A stretch of 64,000 nucleotides of DNA, taken from contig NZ_CP094828.1 of the NCBI RefSeq assembly GCF_022865125.1, positions 1,054,001 to 1,118,000 on the forward strand, given 5' to 3'. Below the pieces are notes generated by a model. That model had not been told where the DNA came from. It made no database searches and worked only from the letters and a program-made list of their open reading frames with translations. This document shows positions 2,784-41,576 of this stretch, piece after piece. How positions within the stretch are numbered: the stretch's first letter is position 1; the number at the start of each line of letters is the position of its first letter. The stretch comes from Acuticoccus sp. I52.16.1. Lineage in GTDB: Bacteria > Pseudomonadota > Alphaproteobacteria > Rhizobiales > Amorphaceae. The translations under genes were made by a program, and so were the position numbers.

Positions 2784-3526
2784 ACGAGATCCTGCCGAAA
2801 ATGCTCGCCGAGTACGGCGACGACCTCCTCGACGGGTTCGTCGTCACCTTGCAGCTCGTCGGCCTGTCGGTCGGCATCGGCGCGGTGCTGGGGTGCTTCG
2901 TCGCGGCGTGGCGGATGTCCAAGAACCGCCTCGTGCGGTGGGTGACGTGGTTCTACACCAACCTCTTCCGCGGCACGCCGCTGCTGGCGCAGCTCTTCCT
3001 GATCTACTACGGCGCCGGGCAGTTCTCCGGCTTCTGGCGGGACGTCGGGCTGTGGTGGTTCCTGCGCGACCCGTTCAACTGTGCGGTGCTCGCCTTCATC
3101 CTCAACACCGCCGCCTACCAGGGCGAGATCTTCCGCGGCGCGGTGAAGGCGGTCCCGGCGGGGCAATGGGAGGCGGGCGCGGCGCTGGGGCTCTCCAAGC
3201 GGATCACCTTCCGCAAGATCATCCTGCCGCAGACCGCGATGATCGCGTTGCGCCCCTTCGGCAACGAGATCATCCTCATGATCAAGGGCTCGGCCGTCGC
3301 CTCCGTGGTGACCGTGTACGACCTGCTGGGCGAAACGCGCCTGATCTACTCCGACACCTTCCGCTTCGACGTGTACTTCTACGCCGCCGCGCTCTACCTC
3401 GTGTTGGTGGAGACGCTGCGCCAAGTCTGGAACCTCCTGGAGAAGCGCCTCACCCGCCACCTCGCGCCGACGCGCACCTCGTCCGCCAAACGACCATTGG
3501 AGCCGAGCGCCATGGGCGCCGCATGA
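2780..3526 (+). CDS. Amino acid ABC transporter permease (HisM/HisQ type), second subunit
   Basis: A 248-residue permease with start ATG 2780 overlapping the TGA of the preceding permease. It has the family layout: an early GFVVTLQLVGLSVGIGAVLG helix, the RGTPLLAQLFLIYYG segment that is diagnostic of polar amino-acid permeases, and an EAA loop (EAGAALGLSKRITFRKIILPQ). Its own stop overlaps the start of the PLP lyase-type enzyme by 4 bp, so import and metabolism of the substrate appear to be co-translated. The binding protein and ATPase must be encoded elsewhere or outside the window. The fold call is certain; the substrate is inferred only as an amino acid. Confidence 0.9.
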   Translation: MNEILPKMLAEYGDDLLDGFVVTLQLVGLSVGIGAVLGCFVAAWRMSKNRLVRWVTWFYTNLFRGTPLLAQLFLIYYGAGQFSGFWRDVGLWWFLRDPFNCAVLAFILNTAAYQGEIFRGAVKAVPAGQWEAGAALGLSKRITFRKIILPQTAMIALRPFGNEIILMIKGSAVASVVTVYDLLGETRLIYSDTFRFDVYFYAAALYLVLVETLRQVWNLLEKRLTRHLAPTRTSSAKRPLEPSAMGAA

Positions 3527-4686
3527 CCGACCGACCCGATACCGCCCGACCCGACGCACTGCGCCGTGAGACCATCGCCGCCCACGCCAACGGCCAGCAC
3601 GACGCGGCGACCGGCGGCGTGGTCGGCGCCTGGCAACCCTCGACCACCTTCGTGCGCGACGCCGCCTACCGAACCCCCGCCTCCGGCGACGTCTATCGCC
3701 GCCCGCACAGTCCCACGACGCGCGAGGCCGAGGCGGTCATCGCCGCCCTGGAGGGGGCGGAGGACGCCGCGCTCTTCGCCTCCGGCCTCGCCGCGATGGC
3801 AGCGTTGATGCGGGCCGCGGGCGGGCCCCGCGTCGCCGTGCAGCGCGGCTCGTACTACGGCACCCAGGTCCTGGGCGAGCGCCTGGCGGACGGCGCCCCG
3901 ATCACCTTCGACGGTGCCTCGCTGGAGAGCCTCGCCGAGACGGTCGCCACCCGCCGCCCGGCCCTCGTCATCATCGAGACGCCCTCCAACCCCTTCCTCG
4001 ACGTGATCGACATCGCCGAGGCCGCGCGCATCGCGCACGCCGCGGGCGCGCTGCTGGCGGTCGACTCCACCACCGCGACGCCGATCCACACCCGCCCGCT
4101 GGAGCACGGGGCCGACATCGTCGTCCACTCCGCCACCAAGGCGCTCAACGGTCACTCGGACGTGCTGGCCGGCGCGCTGGTCCCCGGCCATGGCGGGCGC
4201 GTCCTGTTCGACGCGGCGCTCGACACACGCGCCAAGGAGGGCTGCGTCCTGAGCCCGTTCGACGCCTGGCTGCTGACGCGCGGCATGCGGACCGTGGCGC
4301 TGCGCGTGCGCGAGGCGTCGCGCAACGCGCTCCACCTCGCCCAATGGCTCGCGGCGCATCCGAAGGTGACGACGGTGCGCTATCCCGGCCTTCCGACGCA
4401 CCCCGGCCACGCCGTCGCGGCGGCGCAGATGGACGGCGGGTTCGGCGGCCTCCTGTCGTTCGACGTCGCCGGCGGCGCGGACGCCGCACTCGGCCTCGCC
4501 GGGCGGCTGAGGCTCATCGCGCGGGCGACGTCGCTCGGCGGCGTCGAGACCCTGATCGAGCATCGCCACTCGATCGAGCCCGCCGCCACCGACATGCCGC
4601 CGGGGCTGTTGCGCCTCGCCGTCGGCATCGAGGCGGTCGAAGACCTCGTCGCCGATCTCGATCAGGCCTTGGCCGAGGTGCCCTGA
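3523..4686 (+). CDS. Cys/Met-metabolism PLP-dependent enzyme (cystathionine gamma-synthase / beta-lyase family)
   Basis: The 387-residue product has the fold-type I trans-sulfuration enzyme layout. It shows the N-terminal QPSTTFVRD segment, ALFASGLAAMAALM, the YYGT tyrosine region, ETPSNPFLDVIDI, the aspartate of LLAVDSTTATP, and the PLP lysine in VHSATKALNGHSDVLAG. Family members catalyse gamma-replacement, beta-elimination or gamma-elimination on sulfur amino acids or homoserine esters. Coupling by a 4-bp overlap to two amino-acid permeases favours a catabolic lyase over a biosynthetic synthase, but that is inference. The start is ATG 3523 inside the end of the permease gene. Confidence 0.87.
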   Translation: MTDRPDTARPDALRRETIAAHANGQHDAATGGVVGAWQPSTTFVRDAAYRTPASGDVYRRPHSPTTREAEAVIAALEGAEDAALFASGLAAMAALMRAAGGPRVAVQRGSYYGTQVLGERLADGAPITFDGASLESLAETVATRRPALVIIETPSNPFLDVIDIAEAARIAHAAGALLAVDSTTATPIHTRPLEHGADIVVHSATKALNGHSDVLAGALVPGHGGRVLFDAALDTRAKEGCVLSPFDAWLLTRGMRTVALRVREASRNALHLAQWLAAHPKVTTVRYPGLPTHPGHAVAAAQMDGGFGGLLSFDVAGGADAALGLAGRLRLIARATSLGGVETLIEHRHSIEPAATDMPPGLLRLAVGIEAVEDLVADLDQALAEVP

Positions 4687-35817: not shown

Positions 35818-37188
35818 TCAGCCGCCGATCAGCACGGAGCAGCCGGCCGGGAGCGGCACGCGTGCGCCGGCCAGGGCGAGCCTCTCGCTGTGGTTCTCGG
35901 TGCCGGCGAGGAGACCGAGCGGTGTCGACAGCAGCGCGACGATGCCGACGCACGCCGGATTGCCGAGCCCGTCCTCCATCAGCAGCGTGAACGTCTCCCC
36001 GTCGCCGCTGCGCCAGATCTGCGCGCCGCCGACCGCATCCGCCCCGTTGGCGATCGCCTGGTAGGCCTCCCATTGGCGTGTGCCGAGGTAGAGCGCCCCC
36101 TCGTGCACGCACATCGCCGGGACCGCCGCGTTGAAGACGTCGTCGAGACCCGGCCCCGCCAGCGACTGCGGCACCTTGAGCCCCTGCGGCGAGAATCGCG
36201 GCTGACCGGCGACGAGGTCCCAGGTCCCGTCAGGCCACACGCGGATCACCTCCGCCGCCGCCGGGCCGATATTGTAGACCGGGTCCGTCCCCGGCCCGTT
36301 GACCCCGCCGCCGACGTAGAGCGCACCGCCGAACTCCGCCATCGCCGTGACGACGAGGCTGTGATTGAAACGGCCCGCTCCGTCGCGCAGCACGCACGTC
36401 CACACGAAAGGCGCCTCTCGGGCCGCCTCGGTCGCCCAGACCTGGAAGCCGCGCTTGGGGTTGTGCGTGCCCGCATAGAGCCGCCGGTCGGCGACGCACA
36501 GGGTGTGGATCGAGGCGTTGTCCGGGTCGCCGAAGCCGACCTCCGCGGCCGGCCGCCACACGCCGGAGGCCGGGTCGGCCGAGACATAGACCTCCGCGCG
36601 CGGGGCGACGTCCGGATCGAGGTCGGTGTCGCTGACGGTCCCGCAGGCGGCGGCGAAGAGCTGCCCGTCGAACGCGGTCAGGCAGCGGAACGAGAAGATG
36701 TCCGGGTCGCCGAGGCCCGGCGCTGCGACCGGCTCGAACGTCACCCCGTCGGCCGAACGCAGGATGAGTGCCCCACCGCGCGACATCGTGGCGACGTAGA
36801 GCGCCGGCTGCGGATCGGACGCGCCCTGGAAGACGGCCATCGCGCTATAGCCGACGTCACGCGGGACCTCGGCCCCGGCTTCGCCCGCACCACCGATGCC
36901 GAGCGTGGCGAGCACGCTGGTCCCGGCGGCGACCGCCTGCCGCTCCGGCACGGTGCTGCGCGGCCCGGCCGCCACCATCGGCGGCTCGTAGGCAACGACC
37001 CACGTCGCGCTCTCCTCGTCGAGGCGCATGATGGCGGGCGCATCGCCGCTCGCCCAGGAGAGGTCCGTCGCGGTGCCGATGAAGAGCTGGTCCCTGAAGA
37101 CCACCGCGCACGGGGCGCTCACCGTTCCCGGACGGGAGAAGCCGTCGCTGGCGATCGCGGCGAAGGGGGCGGCGTCGATCCCGTCCAT
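35818..37188 (-). CDS. Predicted cytosolic beta-propeller-like protein, coupled to a sulfotransferase
   Basis: A 456-residue protein with repeating strands of the type 'LY-x-G-T' (LFIGTATDLS, LYVATMSRGG, LYAGTHNPKRGFQVW, LYVGGGVNGPG, LYLGTRQWEAYQ), spaced as the blades of a beta-propeller. Patterns such as IWRSGDGETFTLL resemble BNR/Asp-box-like turns. I see no signal peptide or membrane helix. Its ATG at 37188 shares a base with the TGA of the upstream sulfotransferase gene, so the two are translated together and probably work together. I do not recognise a named family. It could be a binding scaffold or a sugar-binding or lyase-type propeller. Confidence 0.7.
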   Translation of the reverse strand: MDGIDAAPFAAIASDGFSRPGTVSAPCAVVFRDQLFIGTATDLSWASGDAPAIMRLDEESATWVVAYEPPMVAAGPRSTVPERQAVAAGTSVLATLGIGGAGEAGAEVPRDVGYSAMAVFQGASDPQPALYVATMSRGGALILRSADGVTFEPVAAPGLGDPDIFSFRCLTAFDGQLFAAACGTVSDTDLDPDVAPRAEVYVSADPASGVWRPAAEVGFGDPDNASIHTLCVADRRLYAGTHNPKRGFQVWATEAAREAPFVWTCVLRDGAGRFNHSLVVTAMAEFGGALYVGGGVNGPGTDPVYNIGPAAAEVIRVWPDGTWDLVAGQPRFSPQGLKVPQSLAGPGLDDVFNAAVPAMCVHEGALYLGTRQWEAYQAIANGADAVGGAQIWRSGDGETFTLLMEDGLGNPACVGIVALLSTPLGLLAGTENHSERLALAGARVPLPAGCSVLIGG

Positions 37189-38075
37189 CAGCTGTACCCA
37201 AAGCGCATCGCGAGCGAGCGCGTGCGTTCGTTGAAATGCTCGCCGCTCGCCCAGGGCAGCGCGTCGTCCAGCGACGGCACGCGGATGCGCGCCAGCCGTT
37301 GCGGGTCGATCGCCGGATTTTGCAGGAAGTTCGGGTCGTTGCCGCGCGGGGCGCCGCGGGGGCCGGGCGTGGCGTAGGGCGAGGCCTCGGGGTGCATCAT
37401 CGCCTCGAAGGCCGCGGGCGAGGTGTCGATGTCGAGCCACTCGCAGATCTGCGGCAGATAGCAGGCGAGGTCCGACAGCAGCGCCTCGCCCTGCATGCGC
37501 ATCGCCTGGCCGAGTTCGCAGTCGGCCGTGCCGTGGAGGATCAGCTCGTGGGCGCGGGTCCACATGCGCTCCGGGTCCGAGGACGGGCCGCGCGCCACCG
37601 CCTGAAGCGCCTCGAACCGGTCGCGCAGGGCGACGATCGACTCGCCGTTGGAAAGCGGGTGGCGGGTCAGATGCAGGATGTTGGCGTTGGGATAGAGCGT
37701 GCGCAGGCGCGCCATATAGTCCGGTCGCGACACCGTGCTGGGGCTCTTCTCGACGAGGATCTTCGGCCCGACCAGCTCCTGGATGTGCGCCAGCAGGCGC
37801 GGCACGTCCCACTCGAAGTGGGCCGAGATCCAGGCGCGGGCGCGCATGATGGTGTCCTCGGTCTGCTCGCCGTCGTGCAGCTCGGCGAGGGCGCGCAGCA
37901 AGCCGTCGCGAAAGATCGGCATCGACATCGGCCCATGCCACAGCGACCGCAGATCCTCGGCGAGGAAGAGGTTCAGCTCGGGTAGCCCGTAGCATTGAGG
38001 ATGTTGTCCGAGAATTCCGCATACGATAGAGGAAAACGACCTCGGCGGGCACAGGATGAAGAGCGGTTCAGGCAT
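37188..38075 (-). CDS. PAPS-dependent sulfotransferase family protein
   Basis: A 295-residue sulfotransferase-fold protein. The 5'-phosphosulfate loop reads CPPRSFSSIVCGILGQHP (residues 9-26). ILVEKSP (106-112) and the 3'-phosphate-binding arginine in LHLTRHPLSNGES (R138) are all present. Such enzymes transfer sulfate from PAPS to carbohydrate or lipid hydroxyls in the cytoplasm. The subgroup starting PLFIL-PPRSF is known to me from cyanobacteria and marine bacteria without a defined acceptor. It is first in a two-gene unit with the propeller-like protein and divergent from an esterase gene (226-bp gap). Confidence 0.85.
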   Translation of the reverse strand: MPEPLFILCPPRSFSSIVCGILGQHPQCYGLPELNLFLAEDLRSLWHGPMSMPIFRDGLLRALAELHDGEQTEDTIMRARAWISAHFEWDVPRLLAHIQELVGPKILVEKSPSTVSRPDYMARLRTLYPNANILHLTRHPLSNGESIVALRDRFEALQAVARGPSSDPERMWTRAHELILHGTADCELGQAMRMQGEALLSDLACYLPQICEWLDIDTSPAAFEAMMHPEASPYATPGPRGAPRGNDPNFLQNPAIDPQRLARIRVPSLDDALPWASGEHFNERTRSLAMRFGYS

Positions 38076-38301
38076 CGCCTAGGGTCATGATTCGCGGAAT
38101 GAACAGTGGAACGCAGCCGGGTGTGGCATCTCCGACCTTGCCTTGCAAGCCGCAGCGGAGGCCTGTATTTGCCCAATAACGCTAAGGCACTAGAACGACC
38201 TTGAAACCACACAGAGTCGTGATTTCACGTTTCTCGACCCGGACGCGCGCGACCGTTACCTAGTCGTCCTTCTCCACCCCGTCAAAGGATCTGATCGAGA
38301 C

Positions 38302-39246
38302 ATGAGCGTCACGCAAATTTTCTGTGTCCTGCTGCTCATCGTGGTGGGCGGGATGATTGCCGTTGCACAGCCGACCGCCGCCGCCGTCTCGCAGACCGAG
38401 AACATCCGTTCCGGCGGGGATCGACGTGCGTACTACATGGTCCGTCCGACCCGCCAGGTCGACGCGTCGAAGCGGTATCCCATCGTGGTGCTTCTGCACG
38501 GCGGCTACGGCAACGGGCGCAGCCTCGCCAAGCAGACGACGATCGAGGGGGATGTGACCCGCGACGAATTCATCGCGGTGCTTCCCAACGCGGTGCGCAA
38601 CCGCTGGAACGACGGGCGCAGCGTCACCTCCGGCGGCGCCGACGACGTCAAATTCGTGTTGGATGTCGTGGCCGACGTGGTGGCCCGCTTCAACGGCGAT
38701 CCGGATCTGGTGTTCCTGGCCGGCCTGTCGAGCGGGGGGATGCTGACGCAGCGCATCGCCTGCGAGCGGCCGCGGGCGTTCAAGGCCTATGCCGCCGTCG
38801 CCGCCAACCTGCCGGAAGACCTTTACGCCTCCTGCGCGCCCAACCGGGGCGTGCCGTTCCTCTTCTTCAACGGCACGCAGGACAACATCATGCCGTACAA
38901 CGGCGGCCCGATCCCGCGCTCGCGCCTGCTGCGCGGCGGCGGCGGCAACGTGCTGTCGACCAACGACACGTTCAGCCTGTGGGCCGGCCTCGCCGGTTGC
39001 AGCGGCCAGCGCACCGTCGCGCTCGAGGACAACGCGGACGACGGCACCTCCGTCACGCGGGTCATCGCCAAGGCCTGCCAGAACGAGATGCGCGTCGAGC
39101 TTTACCGGGTGGACGGGGGCGGTCATACGTGGCCTGGCAGCTCGTACAAGACGGGGCGGCTCTCGCGTCGCCTCTTCGGCATCACCTCGGAGGATATCGA
39201 TGCGACGCGCCTCATCGTCGGCTTCTTCCGCTCCTACGGCCTATGA
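38302..39246 (+). CDS. Secreted PHB-depolymerase / feruloyl-esterase-type alpha/beta hydrolase (LpqC-like)
   Basis: A 314-residue protein with an N-terminal signal segment (IFCVLLLIVVGGMIAVAQPTAAA). The catalytic triad is visible: nucleophile in AGLSSGGML, aspartate in GTQDNIMPY and histidine in DGGGHTWPG; the oxyanion strand is VVLLHGGYGNG. This is the LpqC / polyhydroxybutyrate depolymerase family, which cleaves ester bonds in polymers or aromatic esters. Several cysteines are present, as expected for an exported protein. The stop overlaps the start of the next gene by 4 bp (ATGA). It is divergent from the sulfotransferase/propeller pair. Confidence 0.9.
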   Translation: MSVTQIFCVLLLIVVGGMIAVAQPTAAAVSQTENIRSGGDRRAYYMVRPTRQVDASKRYPIVVLLHGGYGNGRSLAKQTTIEGDVTRDEFIAVLPNAVRNRWNDGRSVTSGGADDVKFVLDVVADVVARFNGDPDLVFLAGLSSGGMLTQRIACERPRAFKAYAAVAANLPEDLYASCAPNRGVPFLFFNGTQDNIMPYNGGPIPRSRLLRGGGGNVLSTNDTFSLWAGLAGCSGQRTVALEDNADDGTSVTRVIAKACQNEMRVELYRVDGGGHTWPGSSYKTGRLSRRLFGITSEDIDATRLIVGFFRSYGL

Positions 39247-40124
39247 CGGCTGATCCCGGCATGCGGCCAATCTTCGTCCTCGGCGTGCCGACCCCGCAGA
39301 TGGCGCGGGTCGGGGCGATGATCGGCTGTAACCCAGACACGTTCGGGACATCGGACCTCAACCTCTTCGTCGAGGATCGGCTGGAGCTGGTGTGGAGCGA
39401 GTTGAACCGGCTGGGGCAGGCCCACTCGGACGGCCTGTTGCGCGCCGTCGCCTGCCTCTACGCCGGCGACCAGACGATGGATGCGGTGCAGATGGCCCGG
39501 CGCTGGGCGATGCGCCGCTACTTCTGGCCCGTCGACCTCGTTTTCGCGGAGTTGTGCGGCAAGGTTGCACCGCGCCGGCTGGTCGACAAGAGCCGCGTCT
39601 ACGGCGTGCGCCGGGGCGCCATCCAGCGCATTCGCGAGTGTATCGCGCAGGCGAGCTTCGTCCACCTGGTGGGCCATCCGGGGTTCGCCGAGGCCACCCC
39701 GTTCGCACGGCAGGCCGAATCCCCCTTCCAGGAGGAGGAATTCGCGGCCGGGGACTGGGTCCGGATCAACCGCAATATTTGTGACCAGCTCGAGGGGCTG
39801 GATCCGGCGCACGTCCACATCGTGCGTCTGGAGGACGTCGCCGCGGATCCCGAGGCGACGCTCACCCGGCTCGCCGGCGCTCTCGGGCTGCGGGACGATG
39901 CCGCCGCGATCGAGGCGATGCTGCACCCCGAGCGCTCGCCCTTCGCCGCGGTGGGGCCGATCGGCGCGCCCTATGGCGACGATCGCACCTTTTTGCGCGA
40001 ACCCGCCTTCCGCCGCGACATGCCAGCCGTGGGCGGCGGCGTGCGGTTGGCCGAGGGTGCCGCCGCGCTGGCGGAGCGCTTCGGCTATACGCTGGAGCTG
40101 GAGCCGGAGCCGTCCGAGGGATGA
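39243..40124 (+). CDS. Sulfotransferase-fold protein lacking PAPS-binding residues (probable pseudoenzyme)
   Basis: A 293-residue homologue of the sulfotransferase at 37188-38075: RRLVDKSRVYGVRRG aligns with its KILVEKSPSTVSR, and MLHPERSPFAAVGPIGAPYG aligns with its MMHPEASPYATPGPRGAPRG. The PAPS-binding elements are changed, however. The loop reads FVLGVPTPQMARVG (11-24) with no PRSxSS, and the 3'-phosphate arginine is Gly144 (VHLVGHPGF). It therefore probably cannot use PAPS in the usual way. It is coupled by a 4-bp overlap to the secreted esterase. It might bind and regulate the active sulfotransferase, bind a sulfated ligand, or use another donor; none of this is proven. Confidence 0.75.
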   Translation: MTADPGMRPIFVLGVPTPQMARVGAMIGCNPDTFGTSDLNLFVEDRLELVWSELNRLGQAHSDGLLRAVACLYAGDQTMDAVQMARRWAMRRYFWPVDLVFAELCGKVAPRRLVDKSRVYGVRRGAIQRIRECIAQASFVHLVGHPGFAEATPFARQAESPFQEEEFAAGDWVRINRNICDQLEGLDPAHVHIVRLEDVAADPEATLTRLAGALGLRDDAAAIEAMLHPERSPFAAVGPIGAPYGDDRTFLREPAFRRDMPAVGGGVRLAEGAAALAERFGYTLELEPEPSEG

Positions 40125-40145: not shown

Positions 40146-41576
40146 TCAGGCCTCGACGGGGCGGCCGGGCCGGCGGCTCGACCGCATGCGGACCTCCCGG
40201 GTGGCGTAGGCGTAGCCGAGGCCGAGCACGAAGGCGAACAGCGCCGCGACGGCTGGAATTTGCAGGCTGAAGTCGAACAGGGAGTGGACGCCGGCGGCGA
40301 GGGCGCACCCGGATGCCGCGAGCCCGATCGACGTGTCGTTGCTCGGCGAGACCGCCCCGCGGACGACCCGCGCGACGACGATGAAGATCGCCAGCAGGAA
40401 CGCCATGGCCGCAGGCACGCCCAGTTCGAACACCAGCTCCAGATAGGTGTTGTGCGCCTTGTCCCATTCGCCCATCCCGGCGCCCTCGGGCACGTAGGCG
40501 CGGAAGATGTCGGTGAAGGAGCCGGCACCGTGGCCCAGCAGCGGCCGGTCGGCGATCGCGTCCACGGTGGCGAGATAGACCGCGCCGCGCGCTTCCTCCG
40601 ACGTGTCGGTGGCGAGGAAGCGGCCGAACACCCCGGACGCGCCGACGCTGGCGACGAAGATCGCCAGCGCCACGACGAGTGCGGCGACCAGTCCGCTGCG
40701 CCTGCCGCCGGCGCGGGCCGAGAGCGCCAGCACGAAGGCCGCCCCCGCGATCGCCGCCAGTGCGCCGCCACGCGATTGCGAGCCGAGCAGCGCCACCGCG
40801 CACACCGCGAAGCCGACGACGTGGATCCAGCCACGGCTGAGCAGGCGCTCCAGGAAATCCCGCAGCACATGGGAGCCGCGCTTGGCGCCGCCGGTGACCC
40901 GCAACCGCGTCAACAGCAGCGCCAGGTTGATGACGACGCCGAACGCGGCATAGGTGCCGAAGGAGTTGCGGTTGACGAAGGTGGCGCTCAGCGCGCCGGC
41001 GTCCTCGCCGAGGATGGGATTGTTGCCCGTCGCCGCCGCGAAGAGGCCGAAGGTGGCCACCAGCGTCACGGCCAGCGCGGCGACGCCCAGCATGGTGCGT
41101 CCGCGCTCGTTGTCGCGTCCCGCCTGGACCGCGAGCCAGAACAGCGCCACGTAGCAGGCGAGCCGCAGCACCACGTGGCGCCCGTCGATCGGGTCGGCGG
41201 AGATCGTCGGCGCGACCTCGACGGTGTCCCACACCGGGTGCATCAGCACCGGCGGCTCGCGGCCCATGGCCGAGGCGACATGGTCGACGATGGCCTGTGC
41301 GAGGGCGGAGAGCGACGGCGAGGTCTGCACGAACCCCCAGCCGATGGCGAGCCCGGCCAGCAGCGCCGAGGGCCACAGCCTGGCGGCGCGGACCGACGGG
41401 TTGCGCAGCTCCAACAGCAGCCCGATCGCGAAGAGGGCGAAGATCGCGAGCGCCAGGCCGATCCAACTCACCGGGCGGTTGGCTCCCAACGGAATGGCCG
41501 ATGCCAAGGCCACCATCAACGCGATCCAGCCGATGAACCCGGCCCCGCTCGTCCCCGTCTCGCCCGACGTCCGCAT
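40146..41576 (-). CDS. O-antigen ligase/polymerase-like (Wzy/WaaL) membrane protein
   Basis: A 476-residue polytopic membrane protein with many hydrophobic helices. The Wzy_C-type core contains SATFVNRNSFGTYAAFG, LLGSQSRGGALAA and the large periplasmic-loop motif GMGEWDKAHNTYLELVFELG, where the conserved H-N-x-Y/L is the signature of O-antigen ligases and polymerases. It would act at the periplasmic face of the inner membrane on undecaprenyl-linked glycans. No other glycan-assembly genes are next to it; sulfotransferase-like genes are. It converges on the gene at 39243, with 21 bp between their ends. Confidence 0.85.
   Translation of the reverse strand: MRTSGETGTSGAGFIGWIALMVALASAIPLGANRPVSWIGLALAIFALFAIGLLLELRNPSVRAARLWPSALLAGLAIGWGFVQTSPSLSALAQAIVDHVASAMGREPPVLMHPVWDTVEVAPTISADPIDGRHVVLRLACYVALFWLAVQAGRDNERGRTMLGVAALAVTLVATFGLFAAATGNNPILGEDAGALSATFVNRNSFGTYAAFGVVINLALLLTRLRVTGGAKRGSHVLRDFLERLLSRGWIHVVGFAVCAVALLGSQSRGGALAAIAGAAFVLALSARAGGRRSGLVAALVVALAIFVASVGASGVFGRFLATDTSEEARGAVYLATVDAIADRPLLGHGAGSFTDIFRAYVPEGAGMGEWDKAHNTYLELVFELGVPAAMAFLLAIFIVVARVVRGAVSPSNDTSIGLAASGCALAAGVHSLFDFSLQIPAVAALFAFVLGLGYAYATREVRMRSSRRPGRPVEA

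Follow-up and report, generated by a model that had tools for sequence, protein, structure and literature searches.

A sulfotransferase, a relative without its PAPS site, a beta-propeller and an esterase of Acuticoccus belong to a gene set with a PfaA-like synthase

The sulfotransferase (ST) domains of CurM and of olefin synthases act on beta-hydroxyacyl chains that are bound to an acyl carrier protein (ACP). Another bacterial sulfotransferase, AdpST, reportedly yields a product of lipid-like nature. In the portion of the paper on sulfated adipostatins drawn on here (PMC12135136), AdpST acts on a natural product, as we propose for the enzyme described below. Here we analyse four genes at positions 35818-40124 of a 64,000-nucleotide stretch of the Acuticoccus sp. 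I52.16.1 genome (contig NZ_CP094828.1, positions 1,054,001 to 1,118,000; the whole stretch is called the window). They encode an ST, a sulfotransferase-fold protein without the residues that bind 3'-phosphoadenosine 5'-phosphosulfate (PAPS), a beta-propeller and an esterase. Our analysis indicates that all four belong to a large, apparently undescribed pathway that includes a PfaA-like polyketide synthase (PKS), a membership that is well supported.

The four genes form two divergent coupled pairs, as the initial annotation had proposed. On the minus strand, the ST gene (37188-38075) overlaps that of propeller 1 (35818-37188) by one base (TGATG); on the plus strand, the esterase gene (38302-39246) overlaps by four bases (ATGA) the gene of the degenerate sulfotransferase, here called pST (39243-40124). 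The ST and pST both match PF13469 (65.1 and 41.2 bits, with a curated cut-off of 27) and are 31% identical over 257 columns. We take R12 and S13 of the P-loop and R138 and S146 of the 3' site to be PAPS-site residues. The ST keeps all four, with an intact PRSFSS loop, and appears from these residues to have a working PAPS site; the pST has T, P, G and T in their place, PPRSFSS of the ST aligning with VPTPQMA and R138 with G144. The esterase is a polyhydroxybutyrate-depolymerase-type alpha/beta hydrolase that matches PF10503 (34.5, cut-off 23) and scores 135.6 with NF050058, under its cut-off of 150. It is exported-looking, export being judged from an N-terminal hydrophobic stretch and not from a signal-peptide prediction; this stretch, the GxSxG motif (here GLSSG) and the His motif (here GGGHTWPG) recur in 7 of 7 esterases checked from five lineages. 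The gene identities in the initial annotation, including the cytosolic-looking character of the propeller and the export-type N-terminus of the esterase, are borne out.

Searches of Pfam and NCBIfam up to an E-value of 0.1 gave no match for the propeller. Its AlphaFold2 model is a beta-propeller (pLDDT 91.1, pTM 0.91; seven blades counted from the strand list), and the Foldseek matches of this model are diverse propellers (GH74, Bub3, lectins) with no close solved homologue among them. Orthologues are found at L025:10441-11826, L026:6961-8343, L088:10633-12000 and L032:5669-7030, and a protein without a family match now has an inferred context. The 226-bp region between the ST and esterase genes (38076-38301) is little conserved among three Acuticoccus genomes and no sigma-70 consensus was found in it; the idea of a shared promoter motif was dropped in view of the poor conservation.

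Twelve genomes in nine lineages were compared, the genome of the window being G000. The search for the same arrangement elsewhere, which the initial annotation had put forward as a check, recovers the divergent layout of G000 in two further Acuticoccus genomes (G002 and G005) and in G1001, and four consecutive genes in the metagenome-assembled genome (MAG) RA.bin98, so the absence of co-occurrence that would have refuted the reading of the initial annotation is not observed. In G1001, the layout directly adjoins two synthase genes, PKS-B and PKS-A, and the whole region of about 34 kb also encodes an ACP, a second esterase, a second propeller, short-chain dehydrogenases/reductases (SDRs), an alpha/beta hydrolase, a phosphodiesterase-superfamily protein (PDE), an HlyD protein, a sulfatase-superfamily protein, a tetratricopeptide repeat (TPR) protein and, by eye, a methyltransferase-like gene. 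The order in RA.bin98 is HlyD, propeller 2 (prop2), small protein, ST2, prop3, pST, esterase, prop1, ST1, hydrolase, PDE, ACP, PKS-B, PKS-A, sulfatase-like protein and TPR protein. Ancylobacter has a similar region with CysN carrying an adenosine 5'-phosphosulfate kinase, CysD and CysQ at its edge, and G1076 a reduced one made up of CysN, CysD, esterase, small protein, a single ST, sulfatase-like protein, PKS-A, PKS-B, ACP, PDE, a hydrolase-propeller fusion and an HlyD protein. PAPS-making genes adjoin the cluster in two lineages, Ancylobacter and G1076, whose CysN proteins are 65% identical. Within stretches of 50 kb, G1394 has matches for the ST, sulfatase-like protein, propeller, hydrolase, PDE, ACP, PKS-B, PKS-A and HlyD protein, and G1120 for the esterase, hydrolase, PKS-B, PKS-A, pST, propeller and HlyD protein; G1408 and G1180 are represented by short contigs with subsets of the components, the esterase being matched in G1180.

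Taken by lineage, ten components (PKS-A, PKS-B, ST, propeller, esterase, PDE, hydrolase, HlyD protein, ACP and sulfatase-like protein) occur in at least one genome of each of five lineages (Acuticoccus, Ancylobacter, G1001, RA.bin98 and G1076/G821), and overlapping subsets occur in four more (G1120, G1394, G1408 and G1180). These recurring gene sets support the uncharacterised modification system that the initial annotation had suggested; the PfaA-like synthase pathway had not been foreseen. Fusions of the alpha/beta hydrolase with a propeller, as an open reading frame (ORF) of 860 aa, are present only in G1076 and G821 (L091:1993-4575 and L093:16242-18824), hinting that hydrolase and propeller may act together. 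The two are not fused in G1394, where the hydrolase match is found immediately upstream of the frame that encodes the propeller.

In Acuticoccus, the parts are divided over three loci, of which the window is one. The second (L022; G000:C1:2929000-2948000, with components at 2932-2944 kb) encodes a second propeller, the ACP, SDRs, the hydrolase, the PDE and an HlyD protein; the third (G000:C1:1867705-1883457, with the PKS pair at 1867705-1880862) encodes PKS-B, PKS-A, the sulfatase-like protein and the TPR protein. Three of the eight Acuticoccus genomes, the same ones each time, contain both propellers, the pST, PKS-B and a Wzy_C protein (see below); these three may form one clade and therefore do not count as three independent events. 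The HlyD-type membrane protein of the second locus (L022:2963-8053, minus strand) carries a long low-complexity insert rich in Gly and Met, and two of its N-terminal segments resemble each other. A Pfam scan gave no match outside its HlyD part, and PqqD-like or M50-like domains, suspected by eye, are without Pfam support.

The domain order of the synthase is best seen in RA.bin98, where PKS-A reads NMO-KS-AT-ACP-KR and PKS-B reads KS-AT-DH, the Acuticoccus PKS-B being KS-AT-DH-PPTase. PKS-A of RA.bin98 is narrowly over the cut-off of TIGR02813 (omega_3_PfaA; 1014.9 versus 1010.1), which places it among the secondary lipid synthases that Shulse and Allen describe (PMC3098273); this score is that of the RA.bin98 copy, the Acuticoccus PKS-A being known as a tblastn match. 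A separate PKS region of the Acuticoccus genome (G000:C1:4724861-4745394) contains three more large ketosynthase-bearing ORFs of 2072 to 2931 aa.

The propeller family is rare but scattered. Among 150 relatives, a propeller search matched only G000, G002 and G005 (3 of the 8 genomes of the genus), and a pST search found these three again, together with an ST embedded in a PKS of G057 and a fragment from G019. Full-length propellers were found in G000 only in a class-wide sample (n=385), in G000, G002 and G005 in an order-wide sample (n=397), in G000, G1001, G821 and G1076 in a phylum-wide sample (n=398), and in G1076, G1408, G1180, G1120 and G1394 in a sample from the class of G1076 (n=369). 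These samples share genomes, only a few candidates in each genome were scored, and weak partial matches (in G112, G866, G1229, G1311 and at a third site of G002) were disregarded. Ancylobacter mangrovi, RA.bin98 and two distant propellers came from a pattern-limited scan of named genomes. Acuticoccus, Ancylobacter and G1001 are Alphaproteobacteria and RA.bin98 is named only as Proteobacteria; the remaining five lineages belong to a different class of the same phylum, which we take to be Gammaproteobacteria. The propeller has no plasmid match, which speaks against transfer of a gene cassette by plasmids. The two distant propellers (L034 and L035) were left out because their stretches have no PKS or ST match and both genomes have no ST match; the one in L034, an Acidobacteria MAG, has a signal-like N-terminus by eye and lies among three type I phosphodiesterase-superfamily genes (L034:7591-15001), with a glycosyltransferase-like gene (by eye) nearby. 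The PKS-embedded ST of G057, a genome of the same order, belongs to a CurM-like KS-AT-ACP-ST-TE protein (L027:3751-9087, minus strand) next to a protein that is NRPS-like by eye, a candidate terminal-alkene pathway.

Phylogenetic analysis of the STs (26 rows, with the two motif regions left out) separates three classes: ST-1, which includes the window ST (support 95/87), ST-2 (99/99) and ST-3 (100/99). ST-2 contains the STs of G1076, G1394, G1408 and G1180a, ST2 of RA.bin98, the pSTs of Acuticoccus, Ancylobacter and G1001 (the alpha pSTs) and the pST of G1120; the pST of RA.bin98 falls in ST-1. The initial annotation had regarded the ST and pST as paired paralogues, one active and one defective. 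The intact and the defective site are borne out, but not the pairing: the pST of the window belongs, in degenerate form, to the other class and is not a twin of the adjacent ST, and a recent tandem duplication is ruled out by the class assignments. The propeller tree likewise resolves prop1 (100/99), prop2 (97/94) and an Ancylobacter/G1180 pair (100/100), prop3 of RA.bin98 having been dropped from the last tree for its branch length. The classes match in 12 of 12 unambiguous ST/propeller neighbours: seven ST-1/prop1, three ST-2/prop2 (including the G1120 pST) and two ST-3/third class. Related genomes each contribute to this number, and the 12 pairs are therefore not independent events. The count leaves aside ST2 and the pST of RA.bin98 (neighbours ambiguous or unclassed), two G1180c STs (3199-4119, the second beside a propeller already counted, and 1-735, at a contig end), those of G1076 and G1394, which adjoin no propeller, and the alpha pSTs, whose neighbours are esterase, HlyD or small-protein genes. 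We argue from this pairing that each propeller serves one ST. The usual neighbour of ST-2 elsewhere, prop2, is still present in Acuticoccus at the second locus. The best PF13469 match in the genome of the window is a repeat-bearing, by eye TPR-like protein with a C-terminal sulfotransferase domain (L028:6230-8188, minus strand), which sits at another locus and is not linked to the cluster.

Rather probably, the four genes constitute the sulfation-and-release part of a secondary-lipid pathway in which the pST is kept as a non-catalytic partner. The two-protein PfaA-like iterative synthase (G000:C1:1867705-1880862) would build the chain, and the second-locus ACP, propeller, SDRs, hydrolase, PDE and HlyD-type exporter protein would help to build and move the product. 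With PAPS as donor, the window ST would sulfate a hydroxyl of the chain, either still bound to the ACP or just released, with the cognate propeller as its fixed partner, perhaps a scaffold or acceptor-recognition part. The pST, formerly an ST of the other class, may have lost PAPS binding and now act as a non-catalytic partner of the ST/propeller/ACP assembly, where it might regulate or bind the acceptor, as the initial annotation had suggested, or serve as a scaffold. The presence of an ACP and a PfaA-like synthase in the clusters, and of PAPS-making genes at two edges, makes sulfation of an acyl chain the simplest reading. The occurrence of an exported-looking esterase in five lineages and in G1120 and G1180 suggests a step outside the cytoplasm, where the enzyme would act on the product by release or transacylation. 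The product itself is probably a sulfated fatty-acid-like molecule that is exported.

The relation to CurM raises a different possibility, namely that termination of the CurM/olefin-synthase type occurs in trans: a beta-hydroxyl would be sulfated and a hydrolase would release the chain with loss of CO2 and sulfate, giving an unsulfated terminal alkene. The ST domains of CurM (4gbm) and of the Synechococcus olefin synthase (4gox) are by far the closest solved relatives of the ST/pST family in a sequence-profile comparison (4.9e-48 and 2.3e-47, the next being 1.5e-9), and the AlphaFold2 model of the pST, a sulfotransferase fold with a pLDDT of 89.4, superposes on 4gbm with TM scores of 0.79/0.81. 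ACP, PDE, hydrolase and ST1 are neighbours in RA.bin98, and G057 has a real CurM-like KS-AT-ACP-ST-TE protein. Nevertheless, we consider this termination unlikely. The ST and pST of the window, and the STs elsewhere, are free-standing ORFs that are not joined to an ACP or TE, and up to four STs per genome (G1180, two contigs) are more than one termination step needs. The hydrolase finds generic alpha/beta hydrolases and no polyketide thioesterase among the best 60 of 103 matches. Finally, the C-terminal His common to 4gbm and 4gox is absent from the aligned place in 16 of 16 STs, a weak point since a shifted alignment is possible for the three of these that have a His three places on.

The product might instead be a sulfated surface glycan or glycolipid, with the PKS supplying only a lipid anchor and with the esterase and a neighbouring Wzy_C protein as true partners. 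This membrane protein of the O-antigen ligase/polymerase family, whose membership in the pathway is uncertain, adjoins the pST (40146-41576, minus strand), follows it likewise in G002 and G005, and is present in only these three of the eight genomes of the genus. It has no match in the stretches compared of seven genomes outside Acuticoccus (five with the synthase cluster, two with a distant propeller only) or of G1120, G1394, G1408 and G1180. No glycosyltransferase was noticed in the synthase clusters, with no search aimed at one, and both the ST and the pST lie closest to ST domains embedded in PKSs. A glycan product is accordingly improbable; since the four genes are a piece of a PfaA-like polyketide/lipid pathway, the acceptor is more likely to be an acyl chain than a glycan.

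In the preferred account, the pST has no catalytic role. Among 23 family members (16 STs and seven pSTs, an ST of G821 having been dropped because it is cut by a stretch end), all 16 intact STs keep the P-loop Arg and the 3'-site Arg and Ser, as do three PKS-embedded outgroup STs. The aligned P-loop Arg and 3'-site Ser are lost in 7/7 pSTs and the 3'-site Arg in 6/7, G1120 keeping it. Such proteins are present in five of the nine lineages. A single origin of all pSTs is rejected by approximately unbiased (AU) tests (p 0.006 with six pSTs, 0.025 without the PAPS-motif columns and 3.6e-5 with seven pSTs; one model, some long branches), so the PAPS site was lost, and the protein retained, at least twice. 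Smaller trees support the alpha pST clade (98/98 and 97/93). With 26 rows, the tree places the very long G1120 row within this clade (six rows, 87/98) and a clade of five without G1120 is not rejected (p 0.23); the G1120 pST may be of separate origin. The ratio pN/pS is 0.56-0.65 for the pST, 0.54-0.62 for prop1, 0.48-0.52 for the esterase and 0.29-0.44 for the ST, so that the pST is under purifying selection, close to that on its neighbours prop1 and the esterase and weaker than that on the ST.

This selection, the well-folded model and the Arg of the RHP motif kept in G1120 could also be expected of a pST that is still an enzyme, binding PAPS or another phosphonucleotide through altered residues or catalysing some other transfer. 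We find this doubtful, given the losses just described and the replacements, which differ between pST lineages so that no alternative site is evident. That the pST is the product of a decaying pseudogene carried in the operon is very improbable, since, despite its longer branches and faster evolution than the ST, the frame is open in 7/7 pSTs, pN/pS is below 1 and close to that of the neighbours, one clade is kept across Acuticoccus, Ancylobacter and G1001 in the smaller trees, and a second origin is seen in RA.bin98.

Several observations weigh against the proposed sulfation-and-release pathway. The pST evolves faster than the ST, and it is not a universal part, since the stretches compared from G1076 and G1394 contain an ST but no pST. 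In G1120, the pST (G1120:C2:228333-229220, minus strand), which adjoins prop2, is the sole ST-like gene in the 50-kb stretch to which the search was confined; this lineage may do without sulfation or may encode an active ST in another part of its genome. The same stretch has no match for the PDE, ACP or sulfatase-like protein, and the esterase is unmatched both in the 50-kb stretch of G1394 and on the G1408 contig of 10.4 kb. The loci are unlinked in Acuticoccus, where the connection rests on co-occurrence in three congeners and on linkage elsewhere, and the stretch covered of the second locus of G002 gave no match for the PDE, hydrolase or ACP. The lack of a polyketide thioesterase among the best 60 of 103 matches of the hydrolase, noted above for CurM-like termination, counts here as well.

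A broader proposal, which we regard as possible but somewhat against the odds, is that these genes define a new sulfation module, in which three matched ST/propeller classes act on PfaA-like chains and need an ST-fold subunit whose catalysis is dispensable, dead STs being kept as structural or gating subunits. Retention of dead STs argues that the ST fold is itself a useful subunit. If the module is as proposed, its product would belong to a new class of sulfated lipids or polyketides from bacteria, and PfaA-like synthases of unassigned product would be tied to sulfation. The natural pseudo-sulfotransferases, of at least two origins, also make their own retention open to experiment.

In the literature on sulfotransferases with Pfa or polyunsaturated fatty acid synthases, propellers and CurM, the system is not described in the papers listed, judged by the titles and abstract openings of open-licence papers, and no bacterial pathway with a sulfotransferase that is dead at the PAPS site is evident among the matches listed. 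The Pfa-type secondary lipid synthases share with the clusters described here, in the sections of PMC3098273 drawn on, the ketosynthase (KS), acyltransferase (AT), ACP, ketoreductase (KR), dehydratase (DH), NMO-type enoyl reductase (ER) and phosphopantetheinyl transferase (PPTase) domains. Unlike the Pfa-type systems of those sections, the clusters carry sulfotransferases, propellers, an esterase, a PDE and an HlyD protein, and the main text of PMC3098273 contains no word starting with 'sulfo' or 'HlyD'. With CurM and the olefin synthase, the intact STs share the PRS..S/T loop and the RHP....ES-type site of 4gbm and 4gox; in contrast to both, they are free-standing, fall into three classes, are often beside a propeller and show no fusion of ST and thioesterase (TE), and the PAPS site is gone from the pST. 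The mycobacterial sulfolipid-1 and acyltrehalose pathways, as covered in the parts of PMC4183827 considered here, make no mention of a propeller or a dead ST and have a trehalose core; of their proteins, Chp1 is cytosolic and Chp2 periplasmic in that account. They resemble the present system in logic, combining a long-chain acyl lipid, a PAPS sulfotransferase (Stf0), acyltransferases of the alpha/beta-hydrolase fold (Chp1 and Chp2) and coupled export, and the likeness, going by the same parts of that source, is one of analogous parts and not of descent.

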